Source: a virus | Strand: one strand, 5' to 3' | DNA: 32,798 nucleotides | IMG/VR virus record: IMGVR_UViG_3300029309_000174 | Coordinates: 1-32,798 of that record | In this document: piece after piece, positions 23,982 to 25,588 of the stretch | How the letters are laid out: the number at the start of each line of letters is the position of its first letter | How positions within the stretch are numbered: position 1 is the first letter of the stretch | Made by a program: the position numbers and the translations under genes | Notes under the pieces: model-generated | Database searches by the model: none | What the model was told of the DNA's origin: nothing | Seen by the model: only the letters and a program-made list of their open reading frames with translations

Positions 23982-24224
23982 CTAGTTAAGTTTAAAATGG
24001 TTTTCATCTAATGATATTGTCATTACATACCCACGCGCATCACGCAGCCCTACCTCAAAAATAAACTCTCCGTTTCTCTGCAAGTCATCGTCTAAGCTTG
24101 CGCAACGATTTATTTCTGACGCTATGCCGTTAGCCCATAAGTCAAAAACCCGTGGGTTATAATCTTGGTTTTCATCAATCCATTTTTGGATGTGATAAAT
24201 TCCGTTTTGATTTACTGTATACAT
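23982..24224 (-). CDS. Hypothetical protein (80 aa)
   Basis: Begins YTVNQNGIYHIQKWIDENQD and ends in beta strands (NGEFIFEVGLRDARGYVMTI). AGAGAGG lies about nine bases upstream. Small, acidic, soluble; its stop is again the TAG of a junction element. No family recognised. Confidence 0.65.
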   Translation of the reverse strand: MYTVNQNGIYHIQKWIDENQDYNPRVFDLWANGIASEINRCASLDDDLQRNGEFIFEVGLRDARGYVMTISLDENHFKLN

Positions 24225-24458: not shown

Positions 24459-24679
24459 CAAACTATCTCTTGTATTGCTTGCTTGATTCCGGTGCGGTTA
24501 TAGATTGCACCATCCGGCGTTTTGTCACCTTCCAATTGCGTGACAAGAGCCTTCAATCCACGCACATAACCCAAACTTTTGACGGTATCTCTTGCCATGT
24601 TGTAAAGGTATTCATCGTTATTTATCCAAAGCGATACGTTCCAAGCGTTCCAACTTGTGTAACCATTATATTTTGCCAT
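24458..24679 (-). CDS. Small conserved phage protein, DUF7249-like (73 aa)
   Basis: The N-terminal pattern YNGYTSWNAWNVSLWINNDE followed by LYNMA matches a small protein seen widely in phages and bacteria (W-x-x-NV-x-LWI-x-NDE; DUF7249 from memory). Its function is unknown. AAAGGG lies nine bases upstream. It is the first gene downstream of the hammerhead cleavage site, so its mRNA would begin with 5'-OH at 24740. Confidence 0.72.
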   Translation of the reverse strand: MAKYNGYTSWNAWNVSLWINNDEYLYNMARDTVKSLGYVRGLKALVTQLEGDKTPDGAIYNRTGIKQAIQEIV

Positions 24680-24712
24680 TGTCTTATATTCCCTTTGCTA
24701 GTGTTAGCTGAT

Positions 24713-24766
24713 GGCCTCATCAGTAGCGAAACAATCGCTAGACGCGGCTTGCACCGCGTTTCGGCC
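24713..24766 (-). ncRNA. Type II hammerhead ribozyme
   Basis: Read on the minus strand from 24766 down. Stem II 3' strand GGCC (24766-24763); GAAA core (24762-24759, the last A pairing in stem III); stem III ACGCGG (24759-24754), loop TGCAAG, CCGCGT (24747-24742); cleavage base C17 (24741); stem I TAGCGA (24740-24735), loop TTGTT, TCGCTA (24729-24724); core CTGATGA (24723-24717); stem II 5' strand GGCC (24716-24713). All invariant core positions are present: CUGAUGA, GAAA, A15.1-U16.1, G10.1-C11.1 and C17. Stem II is the open end, which defines type II. Predicted cut between 24741 and 24740. It begins three bases after the 263-aa stop codon. Confidence 0.93.
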
Positions 24767-25561: not shown

Positions 25562-25588
25562 TGTCCATATTCCTTTTTGCTAGTGTGA

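Follow-up and report, generated by a model that had tools for sequence, protein, structure and literature searches.

A type II hammerhead ribozyme at a marine phage gene junction and a candidate alternative hairpin built from its catalytic strand

The roles of prokaryotic hammerhead ribozymes, bacterial and phage alike, were described as an open question in a 2017 review (PMC6155905). A hammerhead lying between two phage accessory genes puts that question in a concrete form: does it only divide one mRNA into two, or does its sequence also determine what happens to the pieces? We addressed this for a ribozyme on the minus strand of a virus record of 32,798 bases (hereafter the window), the large terminase of which is closest to those of pelagiphages such as HTVC010P (~51% identity). 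The source of the ribozyme is a marine phage.

A complete hammerhead at a stop codon

Read 5' to 3', the minus strand from 24766 to 24713 is GGCC GAAA CGCGGUGCAAGCCGCG UC^ UAGCGAUUGUUUCGCUA CUGAUGA GGCC, with every core nucleotide intact (Table 1). The CUGANGA and GAAA core elements and the UH cleavage context of type II hammerheads are all present, and of the three helices only stem II is open, stems I and III being closed. Stem II has 4 bp, stem III has 6 bp plus the A15.1-U16.1 pair, and stem I has 6 bp, as judged from the sequence. Nothing in this anatomy contradicts the initial annotation, which had described a complete type II hammerhead with stems of 4, 6 and 6 bp cutting at 24741/24740; C17 is indeed base 24741.

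Table 1. Coordinates of the hammerhead, its alternative hairpin and the flanking genes in the window
Feature	Position	Strand	Basis or remarks
Upstream gene, 263 aa	24770..25561	-	phrog_11344
Type II hammerhead ribozyme	24713..24766	-	5' GGCC 24766-24763 to 3' GGCC 24716-24713; sequence, RF02276, structure matcher, relatives
Stem II, 5' strand GGCC	24763..24766	-	Partner 24716-24713; compensatory variants in relatives
Core GAAA (G12 A13 A14 A15.1)	24759..24762	-	Sequence
Stem III hairpin CGCGGUGCAAGCCGCG, 6 bp	24743..24758	-	On the upstream (5') product after the cut
Predicted cleavage site, C17 (24741) / 24740	24740..24741	-	Hammerhead consensus
Stem I hairpin UAGCGAUUGUUUCGCUA, 6 bp	24724..24740	-	Leading element of the downstream (3') product
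Core CUGAUGA	24717..24723	-	N7 = U at 24719; sequence
Stem II, 3' strand GGCC	24713..24716	-	Final C (24713) doubles as base 1 of the alternative pairing strand
Alternative hairpin CUGAUG (24723-24718)-AGGC-CAUCAG (24713-24708)	24708..24723	-	MFE fold, N7-tail covariation, double change in homologues
Leader (AC)ACUAGCAAAGGG with ribosome-binding site	24680..24703	-	After the ribozyme, before the AUG at 24679; recurs before several operon genes and in relatives
Downstream gene, 73 aa	24458..24679	-	DUF7249 / phrog_871

No match was returned when the whole window was searched with Rfam at gathering thresholds. In E-value mode on 301 bp, the RF02276 (Hammerhead_II) model aligned to 24766-24702 on the minus strand, scoring 30.0 bits where the cut-off is 37 (E 2.2e-4), so the covariance check proposed in the annotation fell short on score while yielding the sole meaningful match in that segment. 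The gathering score is a detection cut-off and not a biochemical definition. Relatives with the same 4-bp stem II design reach 38.6-40 bits, but just 4 matches in 15 loci pass, which indicates that the model under-scores this group. A structure matcher covering types I, II and III, and accepting perfect core bases only, found no structure-complete hammerhead in the window other than this ribozyme; it returned none in 60 Markov-simulated windows, even with looser stems.

An IMG/VR pattern scan for hammerheads with a GGCC stem II, followed by scans in which the core bases or the stem II sequence differed, gathered at least 528 distinct type II hammerheads in all; bacterial and archaeal genomes supplied 30 stretches. 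Hundreds of near and distant relatives differ in the sequences of stems I and III and keep the pairing, and stem II carries compensatory variants (GGCC/GGCC, GGUC/GACC, GGAC/GUCC, GACC/GGUC, GAAC/GUUC and others). Because the stems vary yet stay paired, a chance origin is excluded despite the sub-threshold score. More generally, that score might be taken to mean that the motif is inactive, either decayed or fortuitous. We consider this most improbable given the complete core, the empty simulations and the retention of the hammerhead in near relatives (L011, L044, L054, L060, L070). At the level of sequence, a complete type II hammerhead in the window is confirmed.

The ribozyme points the same way as both neighbouring genes; it adjoins the stop codon that ends the 263-aa gene and precedes the ribosome-binding site of the 73-aa gene. 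The UAA stop occupies 24772-24770, and stem II begins after three further bases (ACA), as had been annotated. Family matches of the flanking genes are limited to DUF7249/phrog_871 and phrog_11344, neither of which gives a function. Among the matches listed, a stop codon is present upstream for 249 of the 263 relatives examined for context, usually a few bases from stem II or overlapping it (medians for the groups, 1 base within stem II and 2 bases from it), and a start codon with a Shine-Dalgarno-like motif follows within 150 bases in 213 of them (group medians 24 and 30 bases downstream). The suggested role as an intercistronic mRNA cutter would fit this arrangement, which is common to most of these relatives. 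The tightness of the placement, singled out in the initial annotation as notable, is already-known biology: intercistronic placement is the norm among phage type II hammerheads, and Perreault et al. 2011 (PMC3088659) reported type II hammerheads flanking prophage genes and clustering around single ones. The placement is therefore not the notable part of this locus.

A second pairing partner for the catalytic strand

Behind the catalytic strand CUGAUGA comes GGCCAUCAG, which enables CUGAUG to pair with CAUCAG. The C of the latter strand doubles as the final base of stem II, with AUCAG immediately behind it. The resulting hairpin and the hammerhead fold are mutually exclusive, and the hairpin lies wholly within the downstream product. 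In the minimum free energy fold of the window region, three consecutive hairpins replace the hammerhead. The annotation had proposed that the new RNA ends are shielded by the stem III and stem I hairpins; this is reasonable as far as it goes, and incomplete, since the CUGAUG/CAUCAG pairing was overlooked.

Since N7 is the freely variable base of CUGANGA, it provides a covariation test for this pairing. In a first set, among the matches listed, U7 members had 22 CAUCAG and no CGUCAG tails, and C7 members had 40 CGUCAG and no CAUCAG tails. A confirmatory scan left N7, the tail base and two stem II positions free and was pooled with the other scans. The 131 C-N-UCAG tails among the matches listed comprise 75 U/A, 53 C/G and 2 U-G combinations of N7 and tail base, one mismatch and no C/A; pairing is Watson-Crick in 128, and U-G still pairs in RNA. 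Two loci in which the same pattern occurs by chance, outside any hammerhead (L346 and L361), do not follow the rule. We clustered loci by the similarity of their flanking DNA, and the hairpin occurs in 35 of 160 clusters (Fisher p ~5e-9 with each version counted once per cluster, some shared descent remaining across clusters). Several clusters contain both the U/A and the C/G version, and the double change separates close homologues (L111/L169, L057/L225, L087/L186 and window-type/L209).

CTGATG-N4-CATCAG is also palindromic as DNA, and the dyad might instead be a protein-binding site, or a product of descent alone, with no RNA structure involved. A dimer site would often mix its arms, however, and mixed arms were found in only 3 of the 131 tails, two of them the U-G combination that RNA allows; moreover, the presence of U7/A and C7/G among homologous loci implies that the double change arose repeatedly. 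We regard this explanation as very unlikely.

The hairpin is kept across at least eight stem II sequences, which indicates that both folds are maintained together. Among the matches listed, its estimated frequency with GGCC stems is ~21% for U7 and ~45% for C7 members, and with GGAC stems 17%, a set partly made up of loci chosen in the first place because they carry the tail; it occurs in none of 25 A7/G7 members. A control scan for weak, 2-bp stem II members produced five stretches only, too few for a hairpin frequency. Because the majority of relatives do without the hairpin, it is not required for hammerhead function generally. Tails in other registers or with wobble pairs (UUCGUC in L181, L191, L233 and L249; GUUAG in L198 and L289) were kept out of these counts. 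The first four (CTTCGTCTGAGAG) allow core pairing in another register, GACGA with UCGUC, and are possibly a second form of the alternative hairpin.

The published type II consensus, as given by Perreault et al. (PMC3088659), often combines a short stem II with a pseudoknot between loop I and the 3' tail, a feature that is common and not universal. We rejected this pseudoknot as the cause of the conserved tail: N7 predicts the tail base, and loop I-tail complementarity in the 4-bp stem II group is near the shuffled level for members with the hairpin (0.27 versus 0.20 shuffled) and at that level for those without (0.13 versus 0.15). Loop I of the window ribozyme, UUGUU, could pair with AACA of the leader. 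The recurrent loop I motif GU-N-A-N-GC hints at a classic loop contact in place of the published pseudoknot.

The alternative core-strand hairpin, which on sequence evidence is conserved and covaries in the window and many relatives, is the candidate novel part of this locus. It is not mentioned in the passages of Perreault et al. (PMC3088659) that we searched, and our literature search found no description of it; most subscription journals and preprints lay outside the scope of that search, so the novelty is provisional.

A leader of the form (AAC)ACTAGCAAA-AGG recurs shortly 5' of many start codons in the accessory operon and resembles a phage start-associated sequence. Copies lie on the minus strand of the window at 25584, 24702, 23986, 22835, 22584 and 19629, and others are present in related phages (L120, L140, L206, L209 and L136), with at least eight copies in L120, L140 and L209. 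The minus-strand region at 23986 has a single leader and no ribozyme; at the homologous junctions of two related phages (L140:1142-1219 and L206:2813-2890), a type II hammerhead with the core-strand hairpin lies between two copies of the leader (AACTAGCAAAAGAGA). This suggests gain or loss of the hammerhead via recombination at leader repeats. Elsewhere in L140 (310-440), it is a type I hammerhead, not type II, that stands ahead of the homologue of the 73-aa gene, and this type I ribozyme recurs in L206 (1430-1570) in front of another gene; Rfam does not list this type I hammerhead at E 0.05. Ribozyme and leader together look like a cassette boundary.

Predicted folding before and after the proposed cut

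We hypothesize, with a probability of roughly 0.52, that the polycistronic mRNA cleaves itself and that the downstream 5' end then refolds into a lock, which would release the products and prevent re-ligation. The hammerhead, positioned where one accessory gene stops and just before the leader of its neighbour, would cut the polycistronic phage mRNA, folding and acting during or soon after transcription with the aid of stem I loop contacts. The cut would part the stem III hairpin, on the upstream product, from the stem I hairpin, on the downstream product, leaving the two joined by the 4-bp stem II alone, with the CUGANGA strand on the downstream side. That strand could then refold into the alternative hairpin beside the stem I hairpin. 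By breaking stem II, this refolding would free the upstream mRNA, make cleavage irreversible and block re-ligation, and the downstream mRNA would begin with a 5'-OH under two adjacent hairpins.

Predicted energetics of the 3' product are in keeping with such a lock. Among members with the hairpin, the predicted pairing of the catalytic strand on this product is 0.98, versus 0.33 with shuffled tails. The window hairpin contributes about -4.4 kcal/mol, and the predicted association of the products is ~1250-fold weaker.

The hairpin may also act before cleavage, because for 62 of 71 members the calculated energies of the uncut RNA predict that the alternative fold prevails over stem II; the calculation covers secondary structure, to which the tertiary (stem I) contacts favouring the hammerhead would be added. 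These energies make a pre-cleavage switch or attenuator the main rival. Here the hairpin would compete with the ribozyme in the intact transcript, either to set the fraction that is cut or to await a trigger, which might be temperature, Mg2+, a protein, or ribosomes that terminate at the stop codon bordering stem II. Two further points speak for this: the hairpin uses the catalytic strand itself and not independent downstream bases, and in most members the stop codon adjoins or overlaps stem II, where a terminating ribosome would cover the 5' strand. Against it, tertiary contacts favour the hammerhead, the tail emerges only after the complete ribozyme sequence, and no ligand-binding element or extra conserved domain was seen. 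We judge this reading possible and clearly less probable than the post-cleavage lock. A broader version, in which natural two-state RNAs are widespread among phage type II hammerheads, cutting is regulated and the maintained hairpin keeps the ribozyme off until or unless it is triggered, for example by a ribosome terminating at the adjoining stop codon, is more doubtful still.

In simulations of the growing window transcript, stem II is predicted to dominate until the final tail bases emerge, whereupon the hairpin wins at first; in longer transcripts, the predicted balance between the two swings back and forth with the position of the 3' end. Directly 5' of stem II, members with a 4-bp stem II have a near-invariant A (125 of 125 with the hairpin and ~98% of those without, among the matches listed). 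It is kept whether or not it is part of a stop codon, and likely makes a tertiary contact.

Finally, the tail hairpin might merely stabilise the downstream mRNA or expose its ribosome site, with core bases used for economy and no part in release or switching. Its position shortly before the Shine-Dalgarno sequence agrees with this, and the hairpin that follows the ribozyme in RiboJ has been proposed to do likewise. A free-standing hairpin would suffice for that purpose, yet in 35 contexts the pairing strand stands directly behind stem II and is matched to the catalytic strand, and we therefore think this explanation improbable.

Significance and comparison with known systems

A conserved fold that is incompatible with the active fold, and that lies wholly on the downstream product, offers a direct handle on the role of these hammerheads. 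The hairpin implies one of two outcomes: cleavage under control, or a one-way cut by which the mRNA acquires a reset 5' end. The compensatory pairs L111/L169 and L057/L225 are native sequences suited to testing, and the design could serve as a template for RNA insulators that shed their leader. When cultured carriers of the hairpin were sought, no match to the window ribozyme, L111 or L087 turned up in the phage collection, and a Streptomyces phage match was rejected as a carrier, as it belongs to a different type II subgroup. The cultured Streptomyces phage Janus (L391; NC_054660, reverse complement of 46689-49710) encodes six type II hammerheads within 3 kb, four of them above the Rfam cut-off and none annotated in the record's table, and is a convenient laboratory system.

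The window ribozyme resembles the published type II hammerheads (RF02276; PMC3088659) in stem order, core, UC^ site and intergenic location in phages or prophages, and multiple copies around single genes occur in both the published set and our related loci. The 4-bp stem II group differs in that, in a subset, the tail is predicted to pair with the catalytic strand instead. Prophage clusters such as that at the ardA locus of Agrobacterium tumefaciens are likewise intercistronic; according to Perreault et al. 2011 (PMC3088659), they cleave polycistronic RNA in vitro and show activity in E. coli. The window ribozyme, in contrast to these clusters, is single-copy, although arrays are common among related loci, with up to eight copies at one of them (L002). 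The nearest functional analogue is RiboJ, which consists of the sTRSV hammerhead and a 23-nt hairpin, and in which the 5' hairpin left by cleavage is linked to more mRNA and protein (PMC6206723). In both cases cleavage would leave a 5' hairpin before the ribosome-binding site, but in RiboJ, a synthetic construct, the hairpin is an element of its own, whereas that of the window takes one arm from the catalytic strand and is incompatible with the active fold.
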